In this document: in pieces, positions 1,968 through 21,078 of the stretch
Layout: each line of letters begins with the position of its first letter
Numbering within the stretch: the stretch's first letter is position 1
Origin: Rhodospirillales bacterium
Lineage (GTDB): Bacteria > Pseudomonadota > Alphaproteobacteria > Rhodospirillales > Casp-alpha2
Direction: 5' to 3'
DNA length: 64,000 nt
Assembly (NCBI GenBank): GCA_021775095.1
Contig: JAJFII010000055.1
Coordinates: 124,001 to 188,000, forward strand
Translations under genes and position numbers: made by a program
The notes under the pieces: model-generated
Told to the model about the DNA's origin: nothing
The model's input: the letters and a program-made list of their open reading frames with translations, nothing else
The model's database searches: none

Positions 1968-2063
1968 ATTGGAAATTTTCCGCGATATCTTGAGAATTCC
2001 GAAAGGACCAATCACCGCATGTGAAGCGACCCATTGCAAATCCTGAAATTACGGAATGACAAT

Positions 2064-2098
2064 TTAAGTTATCTTAATCTAAGCCCTTTGCCTTGACA
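2064..2098 (+). promoter_or_regulatory. Candidate LysR operator and -35 element for the TauABC-like operon
   Basis: TTAAG-TTAT-CTTAA (2064-2077) is a short perfect palindrome in the lysR/tauA-like spacer. It is followed by a consensus TTGACA (2093-2098). No convincing -10 sits at 17 nt, so this could be an activator-dependent promoter. Confidence 0.3.
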
Positions 2099-2201
2099 AA
2101 CATGGCCCTTCTAAAGGCCACTGTATCTGTTAAAGAATTGCAGGGACCGGTTCCGCCTAATTGTACTGGAAAATTTATAATAATTTCACAAGGAGACTTT
2201 A

Positions 2202-3224: not shown

Positions 3225-3244
3225 CCGTTGCGTTCACTCAAAAG

Positions 3245-3270
3245 CGGCTCGTAACTTCGGTTACGAGCCG
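3245..3270 (+). terminator. Intercistronic stem-loop with a cUUCGg tetraloop
   Basis: CGGCTCGTAAC and GTTACGAGCCG form a perfect 11-bp stem closed by a TTCG loop (C-UUCG-G). It lies 21 nt after the binding-protein stop codon. There is no U-tract, so it is more likely an attenuator or mRNA-stabilising hairpin than a full terminator. Confidence 0.7.
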
Positions 3271-3321
3271 TATTTGATTGAAAGTTCTTGTTAATAATAC
3301 GAACCATTGGGGGTGAGCACT

Positions 3322-4134: not shown

Positions 4135-4138
4135 CGCC

Positions 4139-5410
4139 ATGTTAGTTTTAATGATCTATGTCACGATATTTGTTCTTGCCTACGTTATATACCAGGCCGT
4201 CGCCGGGCGCAGTTCTAAAAAGGTTGGATTTAATGCGCGCAAAACGGTGACCTTCGGAGATGAGAGTGCAGTTACCGCCAACCGGGCCGCCTCGGTGATT
4301 TCGGTCGTCTCCATATTCCTCATCTGGGGTGCCTTTACCGGCTCAAATTTAACGCCGATCCACGTTCCCGGACCGTTTGTCGGAAAAACATCCTTTACCT
4401 ACACAGCGACCAATGCAGAAAACCAGACGGACGATGGCACGGTTCACATCAACGTCGCCAAAGTCGGCAACGATTCGAAAAAACCGACCCTCCCGGAATC
4501 CGGCCAATCGGGTTTTGCCAAGGACGATGCTTTGAAAGTCGGTGCCTGGCGCAGCGCCCTCATCCGCGTGCAAAACAACGATGATGGCGGTAAAATCAAG
4601 GGGTATCGGGTCACCGCGATCAATGGTCAGGCCATCGCACCAAACCAGATGGTCGAGGTTGCTGATGGGGTCGTCAGCATGACCTCAAAGGGCAGCCTGT
4701 CCTTTGCTCCGAGCAAGGGCTGGCAAATGGAACCCATTTGGTTGCCGGCACCTGAAGCCATTGTCACCCGGTTGTTTGAGATTTCCAGAGACGGTTACCA
4801 GAACGTCGCGCTTTCTGAAAACATCGGCTGGTCGCTGTTTCGCGTGGTTGTCGGGTTTTTGCTGGGCAGCCTGGTCGGTATCCCGCTTGGCTATGCCATG
4901 GGTTTAAATGACTGGTTTCGTGGCTGGTTCGACCCGATTGTCGAATTCATGCGGCCAATCCCACCGCTGGCGCTGATCCCCTTGGTCATTATCTGGTTCG
5001 GTATTTGGGAGCAGGGCAAAATCAGCTTGCTGTTCCTGGCCGCCCTTTGGATCATGACCATTTCAGCAAGAGCTGGCGTTTCCGGTGTGAACATCTCGAA
5101 GGTTCATGCCGCCTACTCGCTTGGGGCGTCCAAGCTGCAGATCCTTTTGCATGTCATCATTCCCAATTCCCTGCCCGAAATATTCACCGGGGCCCGGGTT
5201 GCCATGGGAGTCTGTTGGGGAACGGTGGTCGCGGCTGAACTGGTTGCCGCAGAAAAAGGCGCGGGAAAAATGATCATTGCCGCCTCCAAGTTTCAGCAGA
5301 CCGACATTGTCATCATGGGGATTATCCTGATCGGCATCATCGGATTTGGCATTGATATTCTCATGCGCATGGCTGAAAGCGTGCTCGTTCCGTGGAAGGG
5401 AAAGGGATAG
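4139..5410 (+). CDS. TauC-like ABC permease with an inserted cadherin/VCBS-like domain
   Basis: A protein of 423 residues, far longer than the usual TauC of about 260-280. It has an extra N-terminal helix (about 4-21) and a second helix (about 51-68). A hydrophilic segment (about 75-198) follows, then the normal permease domain from WLPAPEAIVTRL onward, with an EAA loop near HAAYSLGASKLQILLHVI. The segment carries SFTYTATNAENQTDDGTVHI and GVVSMTSKGSLSFAPSKG, which resemble strands of bacterial cadherin-like/VCBS adhesion repeats (family-style motif knowledge). It sits where TauC normally has only a short connector and would face the periplasm. It might help dock the binding protein or sense the envelope; this is inference. 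Confidence 0.88.
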   Translation: MLVLMIYVTIFVLAYVIYQAVAGRSSKKVGFNARKTVTFGDESAVTANRAASVISVVSIFLIWGAFTGSNLTPIHVPGPFVGKTSFTYTATNAENQTDDGTVHINVAKVGNDSKKPTLPESGQSGFAKDDALKVGAWRSALIRVQNNDDGGKIKGYRVTAINGQAIAPNQMVEVADGVVSMTSKGSLSFAPSKGWQMEPIWLPAPEAIVTRLFEISRDGYQNVALSENIGWSLFRVVVGFLLGSLVGIPLGYAMGLNDWFRGWFDPIVEFMRPIPPLALIPLVIIWFGIWEQGKISLLFLAALWIMTISARAGVSGVNISKVHAAYSLGASKLQILLHVIIPNSLPEIFTGARVAMGVCWGTVVAAELVAAEKGAGKMIIAASKFQQTDIVIMGIILIGIIGFGIDILMRMAESVLVPWKGKG

Positions 5411-7656: not shown

Positions 7657-8835
7657 TTACACGTCCTTTGATTTTGCTAAACGGCGCTCCACCAGCCGGG
7701 CGTAATAACTGGCGCCCAGGGCCAGGATTTCATCATTAAAATCGTACCCCGGATTGTGAATTTCACAGTCCACCACACCGCCGCCATTGCCAATATTGAT
7801 ATAGGCACCGGGGCATTTGTCGAGCATGAAAGAAAAATCTTCCGAGCCCATGATCAAAGGACCATGGCGGTTGATGTTTTCCTCGCCGACCAGTTCCGCT
7901 GCCGTATCGCCGGCAAATTCCGCCTCCTTGTTGTTATTGATCAGGGGCAGAAAGATGGTCTTAAAATCCAGGGTCGTGGTGGCACCGAAAGCCGCCGCTA
8001 CATTTTCAGCGACTTCCAGCATACGGGTTTCCGCCATGGCCATAACCTCGTTTGAAAAAGCCCGGATCGTACCGCTCATGACGGCCGACTGGGGGATCAC
8101 ATTATAGGCGTCGCCGGAATGAATTTTGGTGACACTGAGGACCAGGGGTTCGGCCGGTTTGACATTGCGTGAAACAATGGATTGCAAAGCCGTGGTGATA
8201 TGCGCGGCAATCAGTACCGGATCGATGCTCGATTCCGGGCGCCCGGCGTGGGCACCTTTGCCGTCGATGGTTAAATCAAAAAACCCGCCGCCGGCCATCA
8301 TCGGTCCGGAACGGATGGCAAACTGCCCGGCGGGTGTGCTCGGCCGGTTGTGCATGCCAAAAATCGCGTCCATGGGGAATTTTTCAAACAGGCCGTCTTG
8401 TACCATGGCGTCGCCGCCGCCTAGCCCCTCCTCCGCCGGCTGGAAGACAAAATGCACACAGCCTTCGAAGTTTTTTGTTTCCGCCAGATAGCGGGCGGCG
8501 CCCAACAACATGGTGGTATGGCCGTCATGGCCACAGGCATGCATCTTGCCATCAAAGACTGAACGATGGGCGAAGGTGTTTGCCTCCATGATCGGCAGAG
8601 CGTCCATATCCGCCCGCAGGCCAATGGTCGCGCCGTGATTACCGACCCGCAAAGTGCCGACCACACCGGTTTTACCCAGGCCCCGGTGCACATCAATGCC
8701 AAAGCAACGGAGTTTTTCCGCCACCAGATCGGATGTTCGGTTTTCTTCAAATCCCAATTCGGGATGGGCGTGGATGTCTCGCCGCCACTGGATTAAGTCC
8801 TCGTGGAACTCGGCGATTTGATCTCGTGGGCTCAT
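7657..8835 (-). CDS. M20-family amidohydrolase (hippurate hydrolase / N-acyl amino acid deacylase type)
   Basis: A protein of 392 residues. The N-terminus WRRDIHAHPELGFEE and the di-metal site motif MHACGHDGHT are diagnostic of the M20D group. PAEEGLGGGDAMVQDG carries the catalytic Glu region, and GSEDFSFMLDKCPG is near the C-terminus. These enzymes hydrolyse N-acyl or aryl amide bonds of amino acids in the cytoplasm. It is divergent from a D-2-hydroxyacid dehydrogenase across a spacer that holds one copy of the shared 32-nt motif, so it probably belongs to the TRAP-linked regulon. Substrate unknown. Confidence 0.92.
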   Translation of the reverse strand: MSPRDQIAEFHEDLIQWRRDIHAHPELGFEENRTSDLVAEKLRCFGIDVHRGLGKTGVVGTLRVGNHGATIGLRADMDALPIMEANTFAHRSVFDGKMHACGHDGHTTMLLGAARYLAETKNFEGCVHFVFQPAEEGLGGGDAMVQDGLFEKFPMDAIFGMHNRPSTPAGQFAIRSGPMMAGGGFFDLTIDGKGAHAGRPESSIDPVLIAAHITTALQSIVSRNVKPAEPLVLSVTKIHSGDAYNVIPQSAVMSGTIRAFSNEVMAMAETRMLEVAENVAAAFGATTTLDFKTIFLPLINNNKEAEFAGDTAAELVGEENINRHGPLIMGSEDFSFMLDKCPGAYINIGNGGGVVDCEIHNPGYDFNDEILALGASYYARLVERRLAKSKDV

Positions 8836-8973: not shown

Positions 8974-9005
8974 ATTTTCGATTCTTTCTGTTTATACGAA
9001 AATAT
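8974..9005. promoter_or_regulatory. Shared operator motif, site A
   Basis: ATTTTCG, a 16-nt spacer, then CGAAAATAT. The arms are inverted repeats of each other (ATTTTCG/CGAAAAT). The same motif with identical spacing occurs at 15372-15403 and, with a weaker right arm, at 19957-19988. It lies in the divergent spacer of the M20 hydrolase and the dehydrogenase. Confidence 0.65.
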
Positions 9006-9047
9006 GCATGATATAAAAAACTCTGATTACAGATATGGGGGAGTTCC

Positions 9048-9977
9048 ATGAAAGCGGTATTAAAGGTCAATGGTCCACGCGCGCCCTGGTGGAAAACCCA
9101 CATGTCGTCCCTGCTTCCGGAATTCGAGGTGTTTTTGTCGGACGATGAAATGGATCGATCGACCATCGATTTTGCCATCGTCTGGAAACCCGAACCGGGG
9201 TGGTTAAAAACCTTCGAAAACCTGAAATGTATTGTTTCCATCGGTTCCGGTATTGACCACATTCTGTGTGACCCGGACCTGCCCAAACATTTACCGATCA
9301 TTCGAACCACTGGCCATGACCTGAGCGTTCGTATGCGCGAATATGTGGCCCTGCATGTGCTGCGGTTACACCGGCGGCTGCCAGAAATCGTCGCCGCCCA
9401 GGCGGTTCGCGAATGGCGCCAGATCATCGAACCGCCGGCCCATCAGCGCCGGGTCGGGATCATGGGTCTGGGCAATCTGGGGGCCGATTGCGCCCGCACC
9501 CTGGCGACCATCGGATTTGATGTGGCCGGATGGGCGCGCAGTCAAAAATCCATTGACGGCATCGACTGTTACGCTGGGCCCGAGGGCAAACAGGCGTTTT
9601 TACAACGGGCAGAAATTCTCGTTTGTATGTTGCCCTTAACGTCACAAACCGAAGGCATTCTCAACGCCGACTTGTTCCGGACCCTGCCGAAAGGGGCCTG
9701 CATTATCAACACGGCGCGCGGCCAGCATCTGGTCGAGCAAGACCTGCTCGATGCCCTGCAAAGCGGCCACATCAAAGCCGCCACCCTCGACGTTTTCCAT
9801 CGCGAACCCCTGCCCGCCGACCATGCCTTCTGGGATCATCCCAACATTTTGGTCACGCCGCACGTCGCCAGCCTGCTCGACCCGGAAGCCGGCGGCAAAA
9901 CCATCGCCGAAAACATCCGCAAATTCATCGCCGGCGAACCGATTGATAATTTAATCCCTGAGGGTAAGGATTACTGA
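9048..9977 (+). CDS. D-2-hydroxyacid dehydrogenase (GhrA-like glyoxylate/hydroxypyruvate reductase type)
   Basis: A protein of 309 residues. The Rossmann motif is VGIMGLGNLGADCART. The catalytic triad is Arg in NTARGQHLVEQ, Glu in DVFHREPLP and His in VTPHVAS. Like the GhrA branch it lacks a long N-terminal domain. It would reduce or oxidise a small 2-keto/2-hydroxy acid with NAD(P)H. An SD-like GGGGGAG precedes the ATG. It is divergent from the M20 hydrolase and convergent with the GGT-like gene, and lies under motif site A. Confidence 0.93.
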   Translation: MKAVLKVNGPRAPWWKTHMSSLLPEFEVFLSDDEMDRSTIDFAIVWKPEPGWLKTFENLKCIVSIGSGIDHILCDPDLPKHLPIIRTTGHDLSVRMREYVALHVLRLHRRLPEIVAAQAVREWRQIIEPPAHQRRVGIMGLGNLGADCARTLATIGFDVAGWARSQKSIDGIDCYAGPEGKQAFLQRAEILVCMLPLTSQTEGILNADLFRTLPKGACIINTARGQHLVEQDLLDALQSGHIKAATLDVFHREPLPADHAFWDHPNILVTPHVASLLDPEAGGKTIAENIRKFIAGEPIDNLIPEGKDY

Positions 9978-9989
9978 CCTGAGCGGTCG

Positions 9990-11585
9990 TCACGCCCGCA
10001 CCGACGGCGTGCCTGCATCTGCCCCACTGTCCAACGAAAACGGCCCCTCGGCGACCGCCCCGGCGACGGGGTTTGCCTTGTCGCCCATGCCGCAGGTGTG
10101 GCCGCTGACCGGGTCCCGGTAGACCCCGGACGGGCAGGAATAGAGTTTGGGGAACACCAGGTTCTGGGCGATTTCCAGTTCAAACTCGGTGGCCAGTTGA
10201 TCGATCACCGCTTGTCCCAGGGCCGGATCAACGCGGATGCTCGTCCGTCCGCCGGCATCAATGCGGGGCCGGTTAAAGGCGTCTTCGAGGGAGATGCCGT
10301 AGTCCAGCAACAAGGCCGTCAACTGCATGGTGCAGGGTACGATATGGTTGGCACCGGACGCGCCGACGGCAAACAGCGCCTGGTCGTCGCGCACACAAAC
10401 GGTTGGGCACATGTTTGATGAATTGATGCGTTTGCCGCCGGCCATGGTCGTCGGAAAACCGGGCCGGGGGTCAAAATAGGAGACGGAATTGTTCATCAGC
10501 ATGCCGGTCGACGGCAACATAACCTTTGAGCCGAAGCGATTAAGCAACGTATAGGTCAGAGCAACCATGTTGCCGTCGCCATCAACGGCGCTCATGTGCG
10601 ACGTGCAACCGGCATTGATAACCGGTTTGAGCCGTTGCTGATGGCTGGTAAAGGCTTTGTTCAGGCCGTGGGCATAGGTGGCAAAGGTATGAGCACCGAT
10701 CGGTTGATCCAGATCCAGGTGTTGAGCGACATATTGCAAGGCTTCGTTTAACCGCCGACCGCCGGAGTTTTCGCCTGCCGTATAAATTTCCGCACCCCGG
10801 TGATGACCGACCAGGGGCGCCATGATAACCGGTCGGTAGGCCGCTAGGTCGTCGGTAGTGATGCGGCTGCCACCGGCCTGCAGGTCGGCGGCCATGCGCT
10901 CGGCGGTTTGCCCCTGGTAAAAATCCCGGGGGCCGTGCTCGGCCAGACGTTTCAGGGTTGCCGGCAATTTACCCAGGGATAAAAACTGTTCCGGTTGAGC
11001 CGGCGCTCCACCTGGCAGATAGGTCGCGGCCGAGCTTGGGAACTTTGCCAGTTCGCCGGCTTCCAGGGCGATTTGCAGGGTGGCGAACCAGTCGACGGGC
11101 ATACCCCGTTCTGCCAGTTGCAGGGCCGGACCCAAGACCCGGTCCAGGGCCAGATTGCCATGGTTCTCGAGTGCCGTCGTCAAACCCGATACGGCGCCGG
11201 GAACGGTGATTGAACGGTACCCGACCACATGGGCATTGTCGGCGACGCCGGGGAATCCCATGATCGATTCTGGGACATTGGGGTCGAGGGGATAATCGTC
11301 GAGGGATATGGTCTGGGGCAAGGTGCCTTGAAAATCAATGACCGTGGCGCGTTTTTCGGCGGCCAGCCAAATCACCATATATCCGCTGCCACCCAATCCA
11401 CACATCCACGGCTCAACCGCCCCCAGGGCAAAGGCACAGGCAACGGCCGCATCAATGGCATTGCCACCCTTCGACAGGGCGTCGGCTCCGGCCGCTGCGG
11501 CCATCCAGTTTTGCGATGCGACGACGCCGCGCTCCGATGCCACGGCCCGTTTATGCACGTGCCATTGTTCGATGTTTTTATTCAT
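9990..11585 (-). CDS. Gamma-glutamyltransferase-family Ntn hydrolase (cytoplasmic, YwrD-like)
   Basis: A protein of 531 residues with no signal peptide. The autoprocessing site reads CTSHMSAVDGDGNMVALT. The nucleophilic Thr, the following His and the SxxD are kept, so self-cleavage into large and small subunits is expected. PSTGMLMNNSVSYFDPRPG is the usual small-subunit block. The cytoplasmic location and length resemble the YwrD/acylase branch rather than periplasmic Ggt. It is the last gene of the TRAP1 operon, suggesting hydrolysis of an imported gamma-glutamyl or N-acyl compound. Substrate is inference. Confidence 0.92.
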   Translation of the reverse strand: MNKNIEQWHVHKRAVASERGVVASQNWMAAAAGADALSKGGNAIDAAVACAFALGAVEPWMCGLGGSGYMVIWLAAEKRATVIDFQGTLPQTISLDDYPLDPNVPESIMGFPGVADNAHVVGYRSITVPGAVSGLTTALENHGNLALDRVLGPALQLAERGMPVDWFATLQIALEAGELAKFPSSAATYLPGGAPAQPEQFLSLGKLPATLKRLAEHGPRDFYQGQTAERMAADLQAGGSRITTDDLAAYRPVIMAPLVGHHRGAEIYTAGENSGGRRLNEALQYVAQHLDLDQPIGAHTFATYAHGLNKAFTSHQQRLKPVINAGCTSHMSAVDGDGNMVALTYTLLNRFGSKVMLPSTGMLMNNSVSYFDPRPGFPTTMAGGKRINSSNMCPTVCVRDDQALFAVGASGANHIVPCTMQLTALLLDYGISLEDAFNRPRIDAGGRTSIRVDPALGQAVIDQLATEFELEIAQNLVFPKLYSCPSGVYRDPVSGHTCGMGDKANPVAGAVAEGPFSLDSGADAGTPSVRA

Positions 11586-11619
11586 TACTCAGATACTCCC
11601 TGATGCCAGCCGGTCATAG

Positions 11620-11657
11620 ATAAAACAAAAAGGGGGTTCCGAGTGTCTCGGAACCCC
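11620..11657 (-). terminator. Rho-independent terminator after the TRAP binding-protein gene
   Basis: GGGGTTCCGAG and CTCGGAACCCC form an 11-bp perfect stem with a 3-nt loop (11633-11657). On the minus strand it is followed by CTTTTTGTTTTATC. It lies between the dctP-like stop and the GGT-like start, so GGT expression would need read-through or its own promoter. Confidence 0.8.
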
Positions 11658-11673
11658 AGGTCTGGGAGGCAAA

Positions 11674-12660
11674 TTACAGGTCTTGTTTACCGATCTCGAC
11701 GATTTTTTTGTAGGTCTCCTCACCCCAGCGGTTTTTACCCAATTTGTCGCGAACCGGCTGGGTCGCCGCGATGAACTCGGCCTTGTCCGGGTAGGTGATG
11801 GTGATCCCGCGCTTTTTCATATCTTCGATGAACTTTTCCTGCTGGCCGGGCAACAGGCCCTGAACCAGGGTGCGCGATGCTGCCTGGGCCTTTTTCACCA
11901 TGGCTTTTTCGGCGTCCGATAATTGGCTCCAAAAGGGCTCTCCGATCATCACGTAGGCGGGTTTGTCGATATAGTCGACCATGGCGATGCCCTTTTGTAC
12001 CTCATAAAACTTCTGGGCATAAATCGTCTCGATGGGATTTTCCTGACCGTCGACGAGTCCCGTTTGCAGGGCCGTATAAACCTCCTTGAAAGCCATCGGT
12101 GTGGGTTTGGCACCCAGCGCCGTCAGCGATTCCACGTAATAATCACGCTGCGGTGCCCGCAGTTTGAGGCCATTTAGGTCCGACATTTTGTGGATGATCT
12201 TGTTCGAACTGATCTGGCGCGGACTGCGCGGCAGGAAACCCAGCAAACTCATTTTCCGGGTTTTTACCAGGAGTTTGTTCCAGTCGCTGCCAATGTCACT
12301 GTTGATGACGGCCGCATAATTGTTGATGCCTTTCATTAAATAAGGCAGTGCCAGATATTCGATTTCCTTGATCCCGGGATCGCCACTGGCCATGATTTGG
12401 GTGGTATCCAGAGCCAGTTGGGTGTGCATTTCGCGCGGTGTTCCCAGTTGATTGCCGGGATAAACCGTGACCTTGAAGTGGCCCTTGGACTCGGCCTCCA
12501 AAACCTCCTTAAACTTCAGGGCACCGAGGTGCTGGGCTTCGCCTTCCTTGGCCCACAATCCATAACGGACGTCGACGGCATTGGCTGGTGAATAGATTCC
12601 GGTGATCAGCAACGCCGTGACGGCGAGGCTGCAGCAGATAAGCGTTTTCCTAAGTTCCAT
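11674..12660 (-). CDS. TRAP transporter substrate-binding protein (DctP family), TRAP1
   Basis: A protein of 328 residues with a signal peptide ending at about residue 29 (SPANA). Family landmarks are GNQLGTPREM, LKLRAPQRDYYVESLTALGA (with the ligand-carboxylate-binding Arg) and EVYTALQTGLVDGQENP. It binds a carboxylate-bearing solute in the periplasm for the DctQM pair encoded upstream in the same operon. The creatininase-like gene sits between dctM and dctP, an unusual placement. The ligand cannot be read from sequence. Confidence 0.93.
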   Translation of the reverse strand: MELRKTLICCSLAVTALLITGIYSPANAVDVRYGLWAKEGEAQHLGALKFKEVLEAESKGHFKVTVYPGNQLGTPREMHTQLALDTTQIMASGDPGIKEIEYLALPYLMKGINNYAAVINSDIGSDWNKLLVKTRKMSLLGFLPRSPRQISSNKIIHKMSDLNGLKLRAPQRDYYVESLTALGAKPTPMAFKEVYTALQTGLVDGQENPIETIYAQKFYEVQKGIAMVDYIDKPAYVMIGEPFWSQLSDAEKAMVKKAQAASRTLVQGLLPGQQEKFIEDMKKRGITITYPDKAEFIAATQPVRDKLGKNRWGEETYKKIVEIGKQDL

Positions 12661-12671
12661 TTGTCCTCTCC

Positions 12672-13475
12672 TTATGTGTTAATGCGGGTATTTACGGTTT
12701 TAAAATGTTTTAGAAATGCGACGGTATAGTCGGTTATGTAATCGGCAATTTGTTCGCCGATTTCGGCGGTTGAGCGGGTTGGATCGCCACCGGCAATTCC
12801 GTTACCGCACCGGTCGGTGATGTCGACCGCCATGTTCACGTCAACGCCCTGAAATTTCACGGCATTGAGACCGACCGTAGGCAGGCCGATCATCTCCCCC
12901 TTTTCCGCTTCCACCTTGATTAAATCCATGCGCATGAGTTCCGGCAACAAATGCAGATAGACGGAGGTCAGCGGATCCCCGCCGTGGCCAAAGGCCTTGG
13001 TGCCGAACCCGGGGTGAAATTCCTCCCATTTTTCCGGGGTTATGAGCCGCCAGACATTCAGGCAGGGGATCAGCACCCCCCGTTCCTCTTTGATCTTGCG
13101 GATGGTCTGGTCAATCAGCGGATAGTTTCCCGAATGACCGTTAAAGATAACCAAATGGTCCAGATCGTGGTTGAGGAAATTTTCGCAGATGTCTTCGAGC
13201 ACCCGGCGAAAGGTATCGGGCCGAAAGGCAACACCGCCGGCAATCGGCCGGAAATAATCGGCGTACCCAAAGGGCACCGTTGGCGCCGCGATGACATCGG
13301 CTTGTTCGGCAATACGCCCGGCCAGAATTTCCGTCAGCATCCAGTCGCCCATGGGCGCCATGGGCCCCTGTTCTTCCTGCGAGCCAAAAGGCAACAACAG
13401 GGTTGGTTTTTCACTGAGGCGCTCTTTAAATTCAAGCCAGGTCATTTCCTGCAACAGGTATTTTTTATTGCTCAT
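12672..13475 (-). CDS. Creatininase-family protein with altered metal ligands
   Basis: A protein of about 267 residues, started at ATG 13475 so that it follows the dctM stop by 8 nt. The longer frame overlaps dctM by 40 nt. The fold signature is visible as LLPFGSQEEQGPMAPMGDW, NGHSGN and AFGHGGDP. In creatininase the first block is normally EQHGPHLP-TD and the last HAGExxTS, so a metal-ligand His reads as Gln and the terminal Glu as Asp or lost. It is either a divergent amidohydrolase or a non-hydrolytic relative. It is embedded in the TRAP1 operon. Confidence 0.85.
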   Translation of the reverse strand: MSNKKYLLQEMTWLEFKERLSEKPTLLLPFGSQEEQGPMAPMGDWMLTEILAGRIAEQADVIAAPTVPFGYADYFRPIAGGVAFRPDTFRRVLEDICENFLNHDLDHLVIFNGHSGNYPLIDQTIRKIKEERGVLIPCLNVWRLITPEKWEEFHPGFGTKAFGHGGDPLTSVYLHLLPELMRMDLIKVEAEKGEMIGLPTVGLNAVKFQGVDVNMAVDITDRCGNGIAGGDPTRSTAEIGEQIADYITDYTVAFLKHFKTVNTRINT

Positions 13476-13483
13476 TTCGGGTC

Positions 13484-14773
13484 TCACTTTATCTCCGCGC
13501 CAAACACCATGTCCGGCAACCACAGGCTTAAATCGGGGAAAACCGCAATCACAACTACGGCACCAAATAACGGTATATAATAGGGCAACATAGCGCGAAC
13601 CATGCTCGAGAAGGGAATTTCAGCGATGTCCTGGGCGATGAACAACAAAACACCGACCGGCGGCGTGCCGCCGCCAATGATCAAAACAAAAATCATCAAA
13701 ACACCAAAGTGTACCGGGTCAACGCCAAAGGTCACCACGACCGGCACCAGGATCGGCGTCAGGACAATTTCCGCCGATGAGGCAATCATAAACAACCCGA
13801 CCAAAAACAGCAGGACAACCATGACTGCGAGAATCACGTGGGGGTTGTCGGTAAAGGTTGCGAGAAAATGAGCAATGGTCTGCGGCACCTGTTCGCGGAT
13901 CATGATCCAGCTGAACGACGACGCCACGGCGATAATGATGAGCACCCGGATACTGCCCCACGATACCTTCATCAGGGTTTCCCACAACTCCCGGAAACCG
14001 ACATTGCGATAAATACCGACGCCCAGGATCAAGCCATAAAGAACCGCCGCTGCGGCCGCTTCCGTTGGTGTAAACACACCCGACAAGATGCCGCCAACGA
14101 TGATTACGGGAAACAGCACGGCCGGCGACCCCCGCCAGGTGGCACGCGCCACCTCGGGTAATTTGGCGCGGGGATAACGGGGGTAATTGCGACGCCGGGC
14201 GAGAAACCAGGTAAAAACCATTTGCACGATAATAATGGTGATGCCCGGCAGAATTCCGGCCAGCAACAATCTGCCGATCGACACATCGGCCAAGGCCCCA
14301 TAGATCACCATCCCGATGGACGGCGGAATGATCGGCCCGACCATGGCCGAGGCGACGGTGACCGCCGCCGAAAAATTAGCCGGGTATCCTTCTTTTTTCA
14401 TGGCCGGTATGAGCACCGATCCGAGCGCTGCCGTATCAGCGGTAGCCGAACCCGACATGCCGGCAAAAATCATCGAGGCAAAGATATTGACCTGCGCCAG
14501 TCCACCATGGATGTGCCCGACAAAGGCCCGGGCCATGGCGATGATGCGATCGGTCAATTTGCAGGCGTTCATCAGTTCGCCGGCCAGGTAAAAAAACGGG
14601 ATCGCCAAAATCAAAAAAGAATCAACCGCCGTGGTCATCCGCTGGGTCATCATTGACAGGGAGATATCGGCCAGAAACATGTAAACCATGGAGGTCGTTC
14701 CCATGGCAAAGACCAGTGGCAGTCCGGAAATCAATAAGACAACCAGCAAACCGAGGACAAGCACCGTCAGCAT
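13484..14773 (-). CDS. TRAP transporter large membrane subunit (DctM family), TRAP1
   Basis: A protein of 429 residues with 11-12 hydrophobic segments. Typical blocks are GTPLxF-like SGLPLVFAMG at the N-terminus, AGMSGSATADTAALGSVLIPAM, GPIIPPSIGMVIYGA, GGILSGVFTPTEAAAAAVLYG and IGGGTPPVGVLLF. It forms the Na+-dependent translocating unit with DctQ. It starts 9 nt after the DctQ stop codon, and the creatininase-like gene follows at once. Confidence 0.95.
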   Translation of the reverse strand: MLTVLVLGLLVVLLISGLPLVFAMGTTSMVYMFLADISLSMMTQRMTTAVDSFLILAIPFFYLAGELMNACKLTDRIIAMARAFVGHIHGGLAQVNIFASMIFAGMSGSATADTAALGSVLIPAMKKEGYPANFSAAVTVASAMVGPIIPPSIGMVIYGALADVSIGRLLLAGILPGITIIIVQMVFTWFLARRRNYPRYPRAKLPEVARATWRGSPAVLFPVIIVGGILSGVFTPTEAAAAAVLYGLILGVGIYRNVGFRELWETLMKVSWGSIRVLIIIAVASSFSWIMIREQVPQTIAHFLATFTDNPHVILAVMVVLLFLVGLFMIASSAEIVLTPILVPVVVTFGVDPVHFGVLMIFVLIIGGGTPPVGVLLFIAQDIAEIPFSSMVRAMLPYYIPLFGAVVVIAVFPDLSLWLPDMVFGAEIK

Positions 14774-14782
14774 GGCCCGCCC

Positions 14783-15313
14783 CTACATCACGCTGTCTTT
14801 TTCGGCGTTGTCGGTCGTCCAGCCAGGACGGGGCCAACGCAAAAAAATACGCAGGAAAATAAAAACAATCATCAAGATGCCGCCGATTGTCGCCGGGACC
14901 CGGTAAATGGCTTCCGGCAGGTCCATGGCACCGAGGCTGACATACATGGACAATTCAACGATGGGAATTGAATACCACACCAGGAAACTTAAAAACCCGA
15001 GAGCCACGGCGCAATTGAACAGCCGCAAAGCCCGCCGCAGTTTTTTCGGCAACCGGACAAACAGCACATCAACGCTCAGGTGGCGGCCATCCCAACAAAT
15101 CACAGCAGCGCCAATGAAGGTCATCCAGACAACCAATAAGCGGACCAGTTCTTCGCTCCAGACGAGCGGGCTGTTAAGGACAAACCGAAAAAAGATCTGG
15201 GCAATGGTCAGCACAACAATTGTCGCAAATACGGAACCGACAATGATCCGCAGGGGCAGGGCCCAATCGCGCCAGCGGTCCTTGTCCTGATCTGTAACAG
15301 GTATTTTTATCAT
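14783..15313 (-). CDS. TRAP transporter small membrane subunit (DctQ family), TRAP1
   Basis: A protein of about 176 residues with four transmembrane helices. I start it at ATG 15313, which has a G-rich stretch (GGGGGCGG) upstream; ATG 15334 has none. Landmarks are VWSEELVRLLVVWMTFIGAAV and RHLSVDVLFVRLP. It is the first gene of the TRAP1 operon and is divergent from the GntR regulator, with motif site B between them. Confidence 0.92.
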   Translation of the reverse strand: MIKIPVTDQDKDRWRDWALPLRIIVGSVFATIVVLTIAQIFFRFVLNSPLVWSEELVRLLVVWMTFIGAAVICWDGRHLSVDVLFVRLPKKLRRALRLFNCAVALGFLSFLVWYSIPIVELSMYVSLGAMDLPEAIYRVPATIGGILMIVFIFLRIFLRWPRPGWTTDNAEKDSVM

Positions 15314-15371
15314 GTGAACCGCCCCCAACAGCATACAAAAACTGTGGAATTGATGTTAACACCATTCAACT

Positions 15372-15403
15372 ATTTTCGTAAATATGTTTTTTTCCGAAAA
15401 TAT
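15372..15403. promoter_or_regulatory. Shared operator motif, site B
   Basis: ATTTTCG-N16-CGAAAATAT, identical in arms and spacing to the site at 8974-9005. It lies between the divergent TRAP1 operon and the GntR gene, the natural place for autoregulation and operon control. Confidence 0.65.
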
Positions 15404-15470
15404 ATTGCACTGGATTGTTTTTGCCATGTACTATATTCGGTGTCCGCAGGACATGAGGTTCAGGAGGGTT

Positions 15471-15497
15471 ATGTTATCAAAACAGCAGAACATTTGA
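15471..15497 (+). CDS. Eight-residue leader ORF coupled to the GntR gene
   Basis: A perfect AGGAGG stands 4 nt before an ATG that encodes MLSKQQNI and stops at TGA (15495-15497). That stop overlaps the in-frame TTG (15494) of the GntR frame as TTGA. No other start of the GntR frame has a good ribosome-binding site, so the leader may deliver ribosomes by termination-reinitiation. The alternative is a one-base indel joining the two frames. Confidence 0.4.
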   Translation: MLSKQQNI

Positions 15498-16207
15498 GAA
15501 TTGATCCACAGCCGACGACCCTGGCTGTTGTTGCCTATGAAAACCTGCGCCGCGATATCCGCAGCGGCAGTTTGGTACCGGGCCAGCCCCTGCGCACCGA
15601 ATGGTTAAAGACCCACTACGAGACCGGGGTCAGCCCACTGCGCGAAGCCCTGGCGCGCCTAGCCGCCGAACATTTTGTCACGGCCGAAGGCAAACGCGGA
15701 TTTCGGGTGTCGCAGATTTCCGAAGACGATTTTGATCAGTTGATCGATTTACGCAAAGATCTGGAAGCCCGTGCCCTAAAATTATCCATCGCCAAGGGCG
15801 ACGATGACTGGGAAGCGGGCATTGTCGCCAGTTTTCACAAAATGAACCGCACCTTTCCACCGGGCCTAATCCGAGACCCGGCGGCCGAAGAGGAGCGTGA
15901 ACTGCGCCACCGCACTTTTCACCATGCCCTGTTAAAAGCCTGCGGGTCAAAATGGCAGCTCCGGTTTCTCGATCATTTGACCGGCCACCTGGAACGGTAT
16001 CGCAGGATCATGACGCCGCGCTCAAAAATCACCGATGTGGTTGCCAACGACATTGAAGAGGAACACCGTCAACTGGTCGAAAGTGTTATCGACAGAAAAA
16101 CCAAAGATGCCCTGGCAATCCTTGACGTCCACCGCCATCGCACCTATTCGGCAATCAAGGAAAAATTCACGGAACAAGGTGTCGGTTCGGCATCCGATAG
16201 CAATTAA
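15494..16207 (+). CDS. GntR-family regulator with FCD ligand domain
   Basis: About 237 residues from TTG 15494, the usual length for GntR/FCD proteins. A winged helix-turn-helix spans about residues 10-75 (AYENLRRDIRSGSLVPGQPL, then GVSPLREALARLAAE and GKRGFRVSQIS). The FCD helical domain follows with the metal-site residues in DLRKDLEARAL, HRTFHHALL and EEHRQLVESVI. The open frame extends back to GTG 15314, but that part is not GntR-like. FadR-type regulators of this group bind organic acids. Its likely targets are the three shared-motif promoters. RraA-like gene follows at 47 nt. Confidence 0.9.
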   Translation: MRIDPQPTTLAVVAYENLRRDIRSGSLVPGQPLRTEWLKTHYETGVSPLREALARLAAEHFVTAEGKRGFRVSQISEDDFDQLIDLRKDLEARALKLSIAKGDDDWEAGIVASFHKMNRTFPPGLIRDPAAEEERELRHRTFHHALLKACGSKWQLRFLDHLTGHLERYRRIMTPRSKITDVVANDIEEEHRQLVESVIDRKTKDALAILDVHRHRTYSAIKEKFTEQGVGSASDSN

Positions 16208-16254
16208 GCCCAAAATCCCGTCCTGTGGAACAGGCATAGAAGGAGTTAGAACCC

Positions 16255-16923
16255 ATGAGTTATGTGATTAAGGAAATGCCCAACCCGGTCGCACCGGCGC
16301 TGATTGAAAAATGTGCGCGCACGGAGACCGCGACCGTCGGCCACATTCGCCATATGGGGTTCGCCGACCGTTCGATCCAGAATGTTCTGGGCGACCGTTT
16401 GACCCGGGCCGGTACCGCCGTGACCCTGGCCCTTCCCGGTCAGGATTCCACCTTGCTGCATCACATCGTCCAGTTCCTGCGTCCCGGAGATATTTTGTGT
16501 ATTGACCGATTGGGCGATGACAAACATGCCTGTCTGGGCGGTGGCGTTGCGGCAGCTATTGTCGCCACGGGCTGCACCGGCGTGGTGATTGATGGACCGT
16601 GCACGGACGTGCCGGAAATCGACCAGTATCAGTTGCCCGTCTGGTGCCGGGGCACGGCACCGATTACCACCCGGCTTTATGACGTGGGTGGCAGTTTTAA
16701 CGTTCCCATTTGCATCGGCGGGGCGGTCGTTAACCCGGGTGACGTGGTGATTGCCGATTTTTCCGGCGTCCTCGTCATGCCCGCCGGCCAAGCCGAAGCC
16801 GATGTCGACTGGGCTTTGAGCAAACAACAGGCCGAACCGGAAGGACACAAACTGATGTTGGCCGGTGCCCTATTGGGAGATCGCTCCGGCGCATCGGCAA
16901 AGGTTGCGGCAAAACTCAAATAA
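16255..16923 (+). CDS. RraA / HMG-aldolase-like protein with substituted catalytic Arg
   Basis: A protein of 222 residues with an AGAAGGAG ribosome-binding site. The RraA-fold core is visible as LGGGVAAAIVATGCTGVVIDGPCTDVPEI. In 4-hydroxy-4-methyl-2-oxoglutarate aldolases the last block reads G-x-x-R-D, with Arg binding substrate and Asp holding the metal. Here the Arg position is Thr while the Asp remains. It may therefore be an altered lyase or decarboxylase, or a non-catalytic relative. It is co-directional with GntR and probably co-transcribed. Convergent with TRAP2. Confidence 0.85.
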   Translation: MSYVIKEMPNPVAPALIEKCARTETATVGHIRHMGFADRSIQNVLGDRLTRAGTAVTLALPGQDSTLLHHIVQFLRPGDILCIDRLGDDKHACLGGGVAAAIVATGCTGVVIDGPCTDVPEIDQYQLPVWCRGTAPITTRLYDVGGSFNVPICIGGAVVNPGDVVIADFSGVLVMPAGQAEADVDWALSKQQAEPEGHKLMLAGALLGDRSGASAKVAAKLK

Positions 16924-16974
16924 ACACCTGCGAGAATAACCACCAGGGCGGATCAGGGGGGCTTCGGACGGGGC

Positions 16975-18270
16975 TCAGCGAATGGGGGTGTCCGGCCCGA
17001 GGACCAGATCCGGCAACCACAGGGTCAGTTGCGGCACATAGGTAATCAGAACCAGCACAACCATCAGCGGAATCATAAACGGCAGGACGGCAATGGCGAC
17101 CTTCTCGAAGGGCACTTTGCCAACCTCAACCATGATGTACAGGCCAATTCCCATGGGTGGCGTGGCAATGCCAATGAGCAGGCCCAATTGAATGATGATG
17201 CCAAAATGCACCCGGTCGATACCAAAACTATCAATCACCGGCAATAACATGGGAACCAACATTAATTTGGCCGGCACCCCTTCAACCACACAGCCCACCA
17301 GAATGATAAAAACCAGCATCAGGGCAAGAAATACCGAACGGGATTCGGTCACGGAAAATACCGCGTCGCCGATCATTTGCGGCACCTGTTCGATCGCCAG
17401 AAGCCAGCCCATGGCAATGGAAAATCCGATTATGATCATGATCACCGATGTCATTAACATGGTATCGGTCAGGGCTTTCCATAACCGTTCCCTGGTCAGG
17501 GTTTTGTAAAACAAACCCAAAATCATCGAGTATATGCAGGCCAAAACGCCGGCTTCCGTTGCCGTGACAAAACCACCCAGAATGGATCCCAGAATAATCC
17601 CCGGTGCGATCAGCGCCAAGACCCCGTCGATGCCGGCTTCGCGGATTTCATGGAAACTGGCCCGTTCCTGGGTTGGGAATTTGTATTTAATCGCCAGCAA
17701 CCGGTTAAAAACCATCAACGAGCCACCTACCACAAGCCCGGGAATGAGCCCGGCCAGGAACATTCTCTCGACCGACTGCTGGGCCAGGAAGGCGTATATA
17801 ACAAGGCCGATGGAGGGCGGAATGATCGGTCCGACCACCGCCGAACAGACGGTCACGGCGGCGGCAAATTCCGGCTTGTAACCCCGTTCCTTCATGGCTT
17901 TGATTTCAATCGCGCCAAGCCCGGCACAATCGGCAACGGCGGCCCCGGAGACGCCAGCAAAAATCATTGACGACAACACGTTAACCTGTGCCAACCCGGC
18001 GCGAAAATGCCCGACCAGGGCATTGGCAAAATTAAATATCCGGTCGGTCATGCCAACCACATTCATCAAGTTGCCGGCCATGATGAAAAACGGCACGGCC
18101 GCCAGGGACGGTTTGTTAACCCCCTCGAGGATCTGTTGCGGGATGATGTAGAGGGAATCGGAAAATTCGCTGGTCGCAAAGGTCATCAGCACGGCCGCAC
18201 CAATCGCCATGGAAACCGGGACCCGTAACAAAATCAAGACGATAAAACCGATGAATAAAACCAGAAACAT
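16975..18270 (-). CDS. TRAP transporter large membrane subunit (DctM family), TRAP2
   Basis: A protein of 431 residues. Landmarks are LRVPVSMAIGAAVL, MIFAGVSGAAVADCAGLGAIE, GPIIPPSIGLVIYAF, LGGFVTATEAGVLACIYS and IGIATPPMGIGLY. It starts 2 nt after the DctQ stop codon. Together with 18273-18833 and 18862-19860 it makes a complete TRAP transporter, the second within 8 kb. The two large subunits differ enough that they are not a recent duplication. Confidence 0.95.
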   Translation of the reverse strand: MFLVLFIGFIVLILLRVPVSMAIGAAVLMTFATSEFSDSLYIIPQQILEGVNKPSLAAVPFFIMAGNLMNVVGMTDRIFNFANALVGHFRAGLAQVNVLSSMIFAGVSGAAVADCAGLGAIEIKAMKERGYKPEFAAAVTVCSAVVGPIIPPSIGLVIYAFLAQQSVERMFLAGLIPGLVVGGSLMVFNRLLAIKYKFPTQERASFHEIREAGIDGVLALIAPGIILGSILGGFVTATEAGVLACIYSMILGLFYKTLTRERLWKALTDTMLMTSVIMIIIGFSIAMGWLLAIEQVPQMIGDAVFSVTESRSVFLALMLVFIILVGCVVEGVPAKLMLVPMLLPVIDSFGIDRVHFGIIIQLGLLIGIATPPMGIGLYIMVEVGKVPFEKVAIAVLPFMIPLMVVLVLITYVPQLTLWLPDLVLGPDTPIR

Positions 18271-18272
18271 GA

Positions 18273-18833
18273 TTAACTGTCCGGGTCGGTGGCGTGGGAC
18301 GGTGCCAGTTCGGGCATGCCAACCCAGGTTTTCAAAATATCAAGAATGGCGTTGAGAAAGATCAACAGGCAGGAAACGCCAAGGGGAATGGACAGGGTAT
18401 ACCGTTCGATTTCCCCCCAGGGGGTGACAACCCCGTCGATCACACCAACCTGGCTGGCCAGGATCTTCGGCATTTCCAAAAGCATCATGCCCATGACGAT
18501 CAGGATCAAAACCGGCACCCCATAGCGGGTTGCCAGCAGGGCCTTCGGGCCCAGTTTGATGACCAGAAAATCAACGGCTATATCCTTGCCCAGCCGATAG
18601 ACCACATAAAACCCGATAAACGACATCCAGACAAAAAACTGCATGGTCCAGGGCCAGATCCAGTAAAAGGAAACATTGATCAGGCGCAACAAGATGGTCG
18701 CCGCTGTGCCGATTAACATCAGTCCCAGACACAAGTTCGCCAGCACCAGGAAAACCTGGGAAATCGCTCCCATGACCTGATCAAACCGATGGACCGCCGC
18801 CAGCAGCGGCCCATCTTTGATTTCACTGTTCAT
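18273..18833 (-). CDS. TRAP transporter small membrane subunit (DctQ family), TRAP2
   Basis: A protein of 186 residues with four hydrophobic helices. MQFFVWMSFIGFYVVYRLGKD followed by IAVDFLVIKLGP matches the DctQ core. It lies between the binding-protein gene (28 nt upstream) and the large subunit (2 nt downstream). Confidence 0.92.
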   Translation of the reverse strand: MNSEIKDGPLLAAVHRFDQVMGAISQVFLVLANLCLGLMLIGTAATILLRLINVSFYWIWPWTMQFFVWMSFIGFYVVYRLGKDIAVDFLVIKLGPKALLATRYGVPVLILIVMGMMLLEMPKILASQVGVIDGVVTPWGEIERYTLSIPLGVSCLLIFLNAILDILKTWVGMPELAPSHATDPDS

Positions 18834-18861
18834 TTATGCCGGCCTGAGTCACAGGGGCGCG

Positions 18862-19860
18862 TCAGCGGGTTTTTTCCACGGTCTCCAGAAACCCTTGTGG
18901 AAGCTCTCCATCGGCAGCCATCTTTTTGTAAAAATCAGCCATCACCGAGACGAAGGGACTGCGATCCACATCCATGAATGTAACGCCTTTCGAGCTCATC
19001 CGTTTGATCGATTCATCGGCAGATTTATTCATCACCTCAAAACTGAACTTTCCGGCTTGTGCATAGGCTTTGTTAACAACCGCCTGCAGGTCCGGGCTCA
19101 GTTTGTCATAGGACGGCTGGTGCACCATAAAACCGATTGACTGATAATATTCGTCATGGCGCACGACATGGGGTGCCACTTCATAAAACCGCATGGATTC
19201 AACCAGGGCGATGGGGCTGTTGACGGCACTGACAATGCCCTTGTCAATGGACTGATAAACATCCGTCCAGGCCAGGGTTTTCACATCGGCACCGATGGTT
19301 GTCCAGGTGGCGATGGCGGTTTTGTTGGGATGCATTCGGAGTTTCAGCCCCTTCATGTCATCAAAATTCTTCACATCTTTTTTGGTAACCATCACCCGGT
19401 AGGGGCCACGCAGGATCGCCGTAGGGTCCCCCAACACGCCAACGCCAGCCTGTTTTGAGGCCTTGGCGTACCACCCCTTGACCAGATCCGTATTCATAAA
19501 CCGAACCCAGTGGGCATGGCTGTCGAACAGGAATGCCGCACTGATCCAGGTAATCTCGGGGACCCACTTTTTCATGTAGGTCGAGCCTTCCGCATAGAGA
19601 TGCACGGTTCCCAGTTTAAGCTGCTCCATGACCGCATTGGTTTTGCCAAGCTGCTCATTGGGGAACATTTTGACTTTCATTTGTCCGCTGGAATATTTAT
19701 CGACAAGATCGGAAAACTTCTGAAAGACTTGGCCTTCCGGACTATCGGGCGGCATTTTATGGGCCATCCGCCAGGTCACTTCGGCAAAAGCCACATTGGT
19801 CATCAGGACCAGACCGAGAAGGCTGGCGATGGATAACAAGCCAAATTTACCCTTGAACAT
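18862..19860 (-). CDS. TRAP transporter substrate-binding protein (DctP family), TRAP2
   Basis: A protein of 332 residues with a signal peptide ending near VAFA (residue 26). Landmarks are MFPNEQLGKTNAVMEQLKLG, LKLRMHPNKTAIATWTTIGA and AWTDVYQSIDKGIVSAVNSP. The usual G-x-E-N motif after the VDG position is replaced by VSAVNSP, so the ligand probably differs from TRAP1. First gene of the TRAP2 operon, reading away from motif site C. Confidence 0.92.
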   Translation of the reverse strand: MFKGKFGLLSIASLLGLVLMTNVAFAEVTWRMAHKMPPDSPEGQVFQKFSDLVDKYSSGQMKVKMFPNEQLGKTNAVMEQLKLGTVHLYAEGSTYMKKWVPEITWISAAFLFDSHAHWVRFMNTDLVKGWYAKASKQAGVGVLGDPTAILRGPYRVMVTKKDVKNFDDMKGLKLRMHPNKTAIATWTTIGADVKTLAWTDVYQSIDKGIVSAVNSPIALVESMRFYEVAPHVVRHDEYYQSIGFMVHQPSYDKLSPDLQAVVNKAYAQAGKFSFEVMNKSADESIKRMSSKGVTFMDVDRSPFVSVMADFYKKMAADGELPQGFLETVEKTR

Positions 19861-19956
19861 TACAATCCTCCTTGCGTGATTTATGGGGACCGACAGATAT
19901 GTGAGGTCGATCCGGTTGACAAATTGGTACCAGAAAAGTATTTCCGGGGAAAGAAA

Positions 19957-19988
19957 ATTTTCGATTATTTGTGTTTTTCATAATATAT
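19957..19988. promoter_or_regulatory. Shared operator motif, site C
   Basis: ATTTTCG, 16-nt spacer, then ATAATATAT. The left arm and the spacing match sites A and B exactly and the spacer begins ATTATTTGTG, close to site A. The right arm agrees at 6 of 9 positions. It lies between TRAP2 and the second D-2-hydroxyacid dehydrogenase. Confidence 0.5.
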
Positions 19989-20016: not shown

Positions 20017-21078
20017 ATGACGCTAACCCAGGATCGCCTTAACATTTTTATCACCTCGCCGCTTGAGCCGGTTCACGTGGAGCGCATTCGGGCGACCTGC
20101 CCGGACCGGATTGAGGTCCACTACACCCCGGAACTGCTGCCGCCGCTTCGTTACGTGGCGGATCACAAAGGCGTCGACGGGTTTGTCCGGACAGCCGAGC
20201 AGGAAATCCGGTGGCAAAACCACTTGTCCAAGGCCCATATTCTATGGGATTTTCCCGTCGGTCAAAGCGGACCAGATGAATTTCAATTGCCAGCACATGT
20301 CAAATGGGTCCAGACCACCAGTTCCGGGGTCGGGCAAATGGTCAAAAACTTGGGTTTACAATCCTCTGATCTGCTCATTACCACGGCCCGCGGCATCCAC
20401 GCACGGCCCCTGGCGGATTTTGTTTTTTCTGCCTTGCTGGGGTTTTACAAAGATCACCGTCACTTAGAGATCGAACGTCAGGCGCGGCGTTGGAACAGAT
20501 ATTGCGGTGAAGGCATTGCCGGCAAAACCCTGGCGGTCATTGGCGCCGGTGGCGTCGGCCGACAGGTCATGGCCATTGGCCGGGCCTTTGGCATGACGGT
20601 CATTGCTCTGGCCCGCCCCGGTGCCAAACACAGGGCCGAGGAGCTGGGGGCAGATGCCTTATATCCCTCCGATCAGCTCTTTGAGTTTCTCGCCGAAGCC
20701 GACGCTTTGGTCCTGAGCATGCCCCATACACCGCAGACGCAGGGCATGATCAGCCGCCAGGCCCTTGCCGCCCTAAAACCCGGCGCGGTTTTTATAAATA
20801 TTGCCCGCGGTCAGGTCGTCGACGAGCAGGCCCTGGCCGACGCCCTGGCGTCCGGCCACATTGGTTTTGCCGCCCTGGATGTGTTTGAAACGGAACCTTT
20901 GCCGAAAACCAGTCCCCTGTGGGATCTGGAAAATGTCCTGATCAGCCCCCATTCGGCCAGCACCGTGGCACAGGAAAACCAGCTCATCACCGATATTTTT
21001 TGCCACAACCTCAGCTGTTTTATCGACGGCAGAACCCGGGACATGCGCAATATTCTCGACAAAACCAGGATGTATTAA
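20017..21078 (+). CDS. D-2-hydroxyacid dehydrogenase
   Basis: A protein of 353 residues. The NAD(P)-binding motif is LAVIGAGGVGRQVMAIGRAF. Catalytic residues appear as Arg in NIARGQVVDEQ, Glu in DVFETEPLPK and His in ISPHSAST. It is longer at the N-terminus than the 9048-9977 enzyme and not its close copy. Divergent from TRAP2 across motif site C, so it probably acts on the imported acid or a product of it. Confidence 0.93.
   Translation: MTLTQDRLNIFITSPLEPVHVERIRATCPDRIEVHYTPELLPPLRYVADHKGVDGFVRTAEQEIRWQNHLSKAHILWDFPVGQSGPDEFQLPAHVKWVQTTSSGVGQMVKNLGLQSSDLLITTARGIHARPLADFVFSALLGFYKDHRHLEIERQARRWNRYCGEGIAGKTLAVIGAGGVGRQVMAIGRAFGMTVIALARPGAKHRAEELGADALYPSDQLFEFLAEADALVLSMPHTPQTQGMISRQALAALKPGAVFINIARGQVVDEQALADALASGHIGFAALDVFETEPLPKTSPLWDLENVLISPHSASTVAQENQLITDIFCHNLSCFIDGRTRDMRNILDKTRMY

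Follow-up and report, generated by a model that had tools for sequence, protein, structure and literature searches.

A putative two-box operator at three divergent promoters of a TRAP transporter and hydrolase gene cluster in a Rhodospirillales bacterium

The closest described counterparts of the system considered here are the CsiR/GlaR regulators, transcription factors with a GntR and an FCD domain. Escherichia coli CsiR is described as repressing its target until glutarate releases it, the two primary boxes being separated by six nucleotides (PMC6265302), and Pseudomonas putida CsiR is reported to protect two regions, one of them across the -10/-35 elements (PMC6667623). In the E. coli MG1655 sequence before csiD/glaH, CsiR boxes are visible at -96 and -77. 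For the FadR subfamily, Suvorova et al. (2015; PMC4494728) report that divergons carry site pairs at constant spacing, which they interpret as a cooperative way of controlling the two operons, and that additional weaker half-sites occur beside palindromes. Here, we describe an operator that resembles these arrangements in a stretch of 64,000 nucleotides from a Rhodospirillales bacterium (assembly GCA_021775095.1, contig JAJFII010000055.1, positions 124,001 to 188,000), referred to as the window, where it occurs at three divergent promoters of a cluster of TRAP transporter, hydrolase and dehydrogenase genes that also encodes a GntR/FCD regulator.

A first-pass annotation of this DNA had drawn attention to the pattern ATTTTCG-N16-CGAAAATAT with the same spacing at 8974 and 15372 and with a weaker right arm at 19957, all three places lying in divergent spacers. 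Pattern search of the window bears this out, with exact occurrences at 8974-9005 and 15372-15403 and three mismatches, every one in the right arm, at 19957-19988; the flanking genes encode an M20 amidohydrolase (minus strand) and the D-2-hydroxyacid dehydrogenase HADH1 (plus strand), the TRAP subunit DctQ1 (minus) and the GntR/FCD regulator (plus), and the TRAP subunit DctP2 (minus) and the dehydrogenase HADH2 (plus). Exact sites are expected at 0.0016 per 64 kb, which gives a Poisson probability of about 1e-6 for two or more, and when spacers from N0 to N40 are considered, arm pairs with fewer than two mismatches are found in the window at N16 only, these being the two exact sites. Admission of three mismatches gave five rows against a shuffled mean of 1.08, a number reached by one of 100 shuffles; this test is weak by itself, and conservation therefore had to decide on the third site at 19957. 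A weight matrix derived from four sites in two related genomes, G025 and G078, ranks 15372, 19957 and 8974 as first, second and third of the distinct window positions (scores 37.1, 28.3 and 19.7; next distinct position 13.6), each scoring best on the plus strand, with the qualification that the four matrix sites had been located with the window's own arms, which leaves the test not fully independent.

A reading as two 12-bp boxes separated by 6 bp, the first ATTTTCGWWWAT and the second weaker, appears to suit the operator better. Read in this way, operator 1 extends over 8974-9003 in the M20-HADH1 spacer (boxes 8974-8985 and 8992-9003), operator 2 over 15372-15401 in the DctQ1-GntR spacer (boxes 15372-15383 and 15390-15401) and operator 3 over 19957-19986 in the DctP2-HADH2 spacer (boxes 19957-19968 and 19975-19986), all on the plus strand. 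In the aligned sites, the left 12-bp box has the consensus ATTTTCGWWWAT, the centre of the right box is 18 bp away and the direction is conserved. Over seven sites, 28 of 35 positions of the left inner half agree with a full 12-bp palindrome (shuffles average 12.6, and none of 20,000 reaches the observed value), as compared with 19 of 35 positions for the right inner half (p 0.25). Because the left half is strongly palindromic as a box of its own and the right half is not, a strong box accompanied by a weaker one fits better than one long palindrome with a 16-base spacer, which was rejected; of the one long operator proposed in the first-pass annotation, one operator type at three promoters is retained and the single N16 palindrome is replaced by two boxes. 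In ten operators, which were picked for their boxes, the mean match to ATTTTCGAAAAT is 11.2 of 12 at offset 0, 8.8 at offset 18 and 7.2 at offset 17, compared with 3.5 over all offsets. The left box faces M20, DctQ1 and DctP2 and the right box faces HADH1, GntR and HADH2 in the window, and the side turned towards GntR or TRAP-2 is kept in G025 and G078. The weak right box of operator 3, TTTTCATAATAT, is similar in both relatives, where the right boxes of the orthologous sites at DctP2 are TTTTCATAAAAT (G025) and GTTTCACAAAAT (G078); since CA(T/C)AA replaces CGAA in the right boxes of all three, the weakness of this arm at 19957 appears to be a property that the TRAP-2 operator has conserved.

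Among 317 genomes of the order (E <= 1e-44), relatives of the GntR protein with more than 50% identity are restricted to the own genome, G025 (75%) and G078 (58%), with matches of 43-45% in four more genomes of the order and two paralogues of 46% and 42% in the own genome. In 385 genomes of the class, the own included, there is no match beyond the own genome at 1e-48, a scan of contigs of named relatives gave a single regulator match with 36% identity, and the three other genomes of the genus have no match at 1e-30, the cluster therefore being accessory. The gene order in G025 is HADH2, a site and TRAP-2, and then RraA-GntR, an exact site, the gene for a hydrolase of the gamma-glutamyltransferase (GGT) family and HADH1; in G078, which belongs to another family, it is HADH1, GGT, DctP1, creatininase, DctM1, DctQ1, a site and GntR-RraA, which is the window's own order. 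The window joins two modules that occur apart elsewhere, the TRAP-2 type of G025 and the TRAP-1/creatininase type of G078 (DctM2 identity 90% in G025 and 84% in G078; DctM1 84% in G078). Conservation of the operator upstream of orthologues, suggested as a check in the first-pass annotation, is seen at the GntR and TRAP-2 promoters of both genomes. The GntR promoter sites are orthologous to operator 2, being exact in G025 and having one mismatch in G078, and in a scan with ATTTTCG-N16-SGAAAAT the sole place without mismatch in either genome is the GntR operator; at up to two mismatches the same scan gives, for the two strands, 67 and 71 rows in G025, where the controls give 19 and 15, and 44 and 38 rows in G078, where they give 7 and 5. 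In G078, a two-mismatch site, chosen among the matches listed for its perfect left box and its nearness to the cluster, is located 90 bp before the orthologous TRAP-2 operon (DctP 65%, DctQ 60% and DctM 84% identity). The distance of this operon from HADH1 and the cluster is some 15 kb, and from gntR some 21 kb.

The genome-wide check of the motif was equally carried out. In the own genome (5.92 Mb), the exact pattern occurs at the two window places only, and at up to two mismatches 28 rows (22 distinct positions) were obtained as compared with 4 for a reversed-pattern control. Besides the two exact sites and one at the C15 regulator paralogue, 19 distinct positions are left, of which 15 lie under an open reading frame (ORF) of at least 150 amino acids and four (L008, L012, L026 and L027) do not, a rough test as over-long mechanical ORFs cover the two exact sites as well. 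Two one-mismatch matches in the own genome, C93 and C99, were considered as additional regulon members, found to be inside genes and dropped as chance. The bare exact arms with spacers of 6 to 26 are present in 138 of the 317 genomes of the order and are therefore not specific; beyond G000 and G025, pairs at N16 are found in at least seven places (G009, G020, G048, G056, G089, G112 and G116); there may be a slight N16 excess among the bare-arm genomes. The refined double box at up to one mismatch gave seven sites in three of 15 chosen genomes, four at CsiR-like GntR genes and three at TRAP-2, with 2 for the control, and is absent in all 12 chosen genomes without a close regulator orthologue. 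Throughout the 317 genomes, it yields 19 rows, or 18 distinct sites, in 13 genomes (control 9) and is absent from the other 304. Seven of the 18 sites lie at the cluster (this regulator, TRAP-2) or at the own C15 paralogue and eleven in ten other genomes; perfect double boxes make up six of the 18, five in the three regulator-bearing genomes and one in G258. Two of the eleven other sites are within about 1.1 kb of other CsiR-like FCD regulators, namely the perfect double box of G258, between an FCD regulator with 37% identity to E. coli CsiR and TRAP genes, and a site in G264 about 1.1 kb from an FCD regulator (39% to CsiR over 157 amino acids) in an FAA-hydrolase/glyoxalase/aldehyde dehydrogenase cluster. 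In G258 (C153 L177, 6086-6135), the spacer between the FCD regulator and the TRAP genes contains a run of three TTTTCGAAAA-like palindromes whose centres are separated by 19 and 18 bp; the FCD regulator is followed by a molybdopterin oxidoreductase gene with a pyrogallol hydroxytransferase-like domain.

The regulator itself is encoded at 15494-16207 (plus strand). With a GntR helix-turn-helix, an FCD domain (both by Pfam) and near full-length similarity to CsiR, it is assigned to the CsiR/GlaR-like class by sequence similarity; the CsiR model NF008576 is its best curated model at 145.5 bits (145.9 in a repeat), below the equivalog cut-off of 218. Its identity to E. coli CsiR is 34% over 209 amino acids, with a shared LRHxxFH stretch and GV-x-PLREAL in the helix-turn-helix. 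The predicted arrangement of two boxes about six nucleotides apart resembles the E. coli csiD (glaH) operator, although the distance from box to box is 18 bp in the window and 19 bp for CsiR and the window regulator adjoins TRAP and hydrolase genes, not glutarate genes. A canonical FadR-subfamily operator is not apparent, since the general consensus of that subfamily with GT/AC pairs, as given in PMC4494728, is not seen in the window boxes with their consensus ATTTTCGWWWAT, and the extra half-sites reported there are positioned 7-12 nucleotides from the centre. The start of the gene is uncertain: TTG at 15494 is an in-frame candidate, and ATG at 15471 is better placed but out of frame. This ATG, which has a good ribosome-binding site, opens an eight-codon frame, MLSKQQNI (15471-15497), whose stop TGA overlaps TTG 15494 and which may be a leader peptide with a coupled start, a frameshift or an assembly error.

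As a whole, these data are best explained, and we consider this probable, by a GntR/FCD repressor that acts on the two-box operator and controls three divergent gene pairs. That the three regions would form one regulon is well supported, as one operator type is found at three divergent promoters, orthologous sites are present in two genomes and the refined site is rare elsewhere; the catabolic regulon of the first-pass annotation is thereby strengthened, and co-occurrence points to the GntR/FCD protein as the regulator of the sites. In view of the likeness to the CsiR proteins of the literature, we infer for the window protein repression, two dimers and a response to a carboxylate: as a CsiR/GlaR-like repressor it would occupy the ATTTTCGAAAAT-like 12-bp boxes, whose centres are separated by 18 bp, probably in the form of two dimers side by side, and would in each of the three divergent spacers block both promoters until freed by a carboxylate inducer. 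This inducer would probably be the substrate that is taken up or a product of its breakdown. Release would turn on the two TRAP importers, GntR-RraA, the creatininase-like and GGT-like hydrolases and HADH2 and, probably in this genome, also HADH1 and M20. Cytoplasmic cleavage of an amide bond, possibly a cyclic one, in the imported carboxylate would then yield a hydroxy- or oxo-acid, which might subsequently be oxidised or reduced.

The gene content agrees with the earlier calls, all of which were confirmed by Pfam. Two complete TRAP transporters, each with DctP, DctQ and DctM, are encoded on the minus strand, TRAP-1 by DctQ (14783-15334, PF04290), DctM (13484-14773, PF06808) and the solute-binding DctP (11674-12660, PF03480), and TRAP-2 by DctP (18862-19860, PF03480), DctQ (18273-18833, PF04290) and DctM (16975-18270, PF06808). 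The M20 amidohydrolase (7657-8835, minus; Peptidase_M20, PF01546) belongs to the TIGR01891 subfamily with 376 bits (cut-off 153.75). Both dehydrogenases, HADH1 (9048-9977, plus) and HADH2 (20017-21078, plus; divergent from DctP2, in G025 too), have the 2-Hacid_dh_C domain (PF02826); the nearest curated model of HADH1 is GhrA (NF012013), which it matches with 218 bits against a threshold of 403. A creatininase-like protein (12672-13523, minus; PF02633) is encoded between DctM1 and DctP1, as in G078; it belongs to the family of creatininase (PDB 3a6e) but scores 82.4 bits with TIGR04448 (threshold 235), with the positions of His36 and Glu122, which we take to be metal ligands, changed to Gln and Gly. 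The RraA-like protein (16255-16923, plus; PF03737), downstream of GntR as in G025 and G078, is of the same family as the RraA-type aldolase of PDB 3noj, whose 'RD', presumably an Arg before the metal Asp, is 'TD' here, Arg having become Thr. These changed residues are kept in the creatininase-like orthologue of G078 and the RraA-like orthologues of G025 and G078. A terminator-like hairpin at 11633-11657 (minus) in the DctP1-GGT spacer may lower GGT expression relative to the importer; 21 terminator-like patterns were found in the region against 18.8 expected by chance, and the corresponding G078 spacer also shows a GC-rich inverted repeat followed by T's.

The GGT-family Ntn-hydrolase (9990-11585, minus; PF01019) matches the Pfam family G_glu_transpept with E 8e-95 and resembles E. 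coli GGT (PDB 2e0w) in sequence family and in its Thr nucleophile at the start of the small subunit, its Thr328 falling on residue 391 of 2e0w and on the first residue of solved B chains. It differs in a score of 276.6 bits with TIGR00066, under the cut-off of 357.85, in a sequence with no apparent hydrophobic leader and in its pocket: of the six E. coli residues that we take to hold the gamma-glutamyl group, Ser462 is kept and Arg114, Asn411, Gln430, Asp433 and Ser463 are replaced by Gln, Leu, Ser, Tyr and Asn. In the alignment to 2e0w the position of Arg114 was identified by eye; eight of nine aligned sequences, the window included, have Gln there and the ninth has Ser. As five of the six ligand residues are replaced, a gamma-glutamyl substrate is disfavoured, and with the pocket residues lost and no apparent leader a predicted cytoplasmic amidase on another substrate is likelier. 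The substrate may be a carboxylate containing an amide that is cleaved in the cytoplasm; the changed residues together with plasmid contexts give hints of amide or ureide chemistry, short of an assignment. In this respect, a cluster that degrades a cyclic amide or ureide, similar to allantoin, hydantoin or a lactam, and in which the creatininase-like and GGT-like proteins would act one after the other as amidohydrolases, is possible, if on balance rather unlikely. In its favour, two plasmid records opened out of 733 with a GGT match carry homologues of about 40% identity amid cyclic-amide type genes, in the company of polysaccharide deacetylase and of amidohydrolase or RidA and peptide-type ABC genes, and G036 has allantoate-amidohydrolase-family and FdrA-family genes, both above cut-off, about 4 and 8 kb from its GGT-HADH1 pair. 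However, two presumed metal-ligand positions of the creatininase-like protein are changed, the G025 cluster is without a close creatininase-like relative (a 33%-identical one lies some 10 kb beyond HADH1), and the G036 neighbours may be unrelated.

Several observations weigh against the proposed regulation. The boxes of E. coli CsiR, TTGTN5TTTT, differ from the ATTTTCGAAAAT-like boxes of the window; the promoter of the own C7 paralogue has TTTCGAAA-like boxes without a good pair, and no site with up to three mismatches is found in the 350 bases before the GntR relatives of 43-45% identity (G250, G211, G152 and G175). Nine of the eleven other order-wide matches are without similarity to the 18 window query proteins in the fetched loci. 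There is also some circularity in that the G025 and G078 sites were found using the window arms, the S in ATTTTCG-N16-SGAAAAT was introduced on account of the G078 site, and the sites which the refined pattern recovers in the three genomes are those from which it was built; the independent evidence is provided by the genome positions of the matches and the finds in G258 and G264. Most of the remaining points concern operator 1. Its left box is the poorest, with three of six palindromic pairs compared with four to six at other sites, and it falls outside the set that the refined double box recovers at up to one mismatch. It is strong in the window only: the G025 HADH1 gene has no site within two mismatches, in G078 a weak match, with three mismatches or two if S is allowed, immediately precedes the stretch that matches HADH1, and none of five other M20 loci has a promoter site, the lone two-mismatch match, before the G025 M20 homologue, falling inside the preceding ORF of 340 amino acids. 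Operator 1 might accordingly be a recent or chance site with M20 and HADH1 outside the core regulon, which we regard as doubtful, as its arms are exact with the same N16, it is the third window position with a matrix from foreign sites, and HADH1 adjoins GGT in all five other genomes, out of 317, with GGT matches of 69-75%. Three genomes with GGT and no GntR match at 1e-30 (G035, G036 and G039) show no site within two mismatches in the fetched loci.

It is unlikely that the sites are targets of another regulator, with gntR no more than a neighbour of one of them. The gene does indeed not adjoin operator 1, operator 3 or the TRAP-2 operator of G078, and nine of the eleven other order-wide matches have no CsiR-like regulator in the fetched locus. 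On the other hand, the site is found at promoters of CsiR-like regulators in the window, G025, G078, the own C15 paralogue (46%) and G258, and its absence at up to one mismatch from the 12 chosen genomes without a close orthologue and from 304 genomes of the order argues for a link to this regulator. The import and cleavage of a gamma-glutamyl hydroxy acid by a true gamma-glutamyl hydrolase, as entertained in the first-pass annotation, is very improbable, as the G_glu_transpept match, the kept nucleophile and the presence of TRAP importers and hydroxyacid dehydrogenases are outweighed by the replaced ligand residues (with their presumed roles), the prevalence of Gln at the Arg114 position, the TIGR00066 score and the lack of an apparent hydrophobic leader. 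Equally, a relation to HpxW and oxamate was considered and dropped, because the solved chain 5hft, which we take to be HpxW, matches the GGT-like protein more weakly than true GGTs do; no useful literature on this idea was found. Pantothenate or pantoate was among the other ideas set aside, and the titles and abstract starts of open-licence papers gave no description of such a cluster.

With respect to neighbouring genes, NMT1-type binding-protein and permease genes and a gene for a LysR regulator transcribed divergently from them occupy positions 996-5410 of the window, about 2 kb before the M20 gene. On the G025 contig (C67 L041), four-carbon acid sugar kinase-like, PdxA-like and further TRAP genes (DctM 46% to DctM1) occur beside the cluster at 237-4246, with a phage-integrase gene between this group and the cluster, and an oligopeptide-type ABC importer with two ATPase domains, permeases and a family 5 binding protein is found at 13842-19307 directly upstream of HADH1. 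In G036 (C70 L079, 9978-19391), GGT-HADH1 is followed by genes for a D-amino-acid dehydrogenase-like protein, a thiamine pyrophosphate enzyme, an allantoate-amidohydrolase-family protein, an aminotransferase and an FdrA-family protein. In G035 (C98 L080, 10399-11324), the HADH1 match comes in two overlapping pieces, as if frameshifted.

The operator provides a searchable pattern for CsiR/GlaR-like regulators and defines a testable regulon whose operator recurs in bacteria of two families. Furthermore, a small set of enzymes and two importers are singled out, the shared substrate of which could be found by screening. Among the 20 plasmid records listed out of 733, relatives of the GGT-like enzyme that bear a label are in most cases called gamma-glutamyltransferase; judging by the present case, this name may be incorrect for the closest relatives of the enzyme. 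Tentatively, and with somewhat less than even confidence, we propose that the CsiR/GlaR-like regulators of the order use tandem 12-bp TTTTCGAAAA palindromes every 18-19 bp and that the pocket-stripped cytoplasmic GGT-family Ntn-hydrolase is the amidase of an undescribed catabolic route. If this is true, the tandem TTTTCGAAAA layout would predict members of such regulons from sequence alone.

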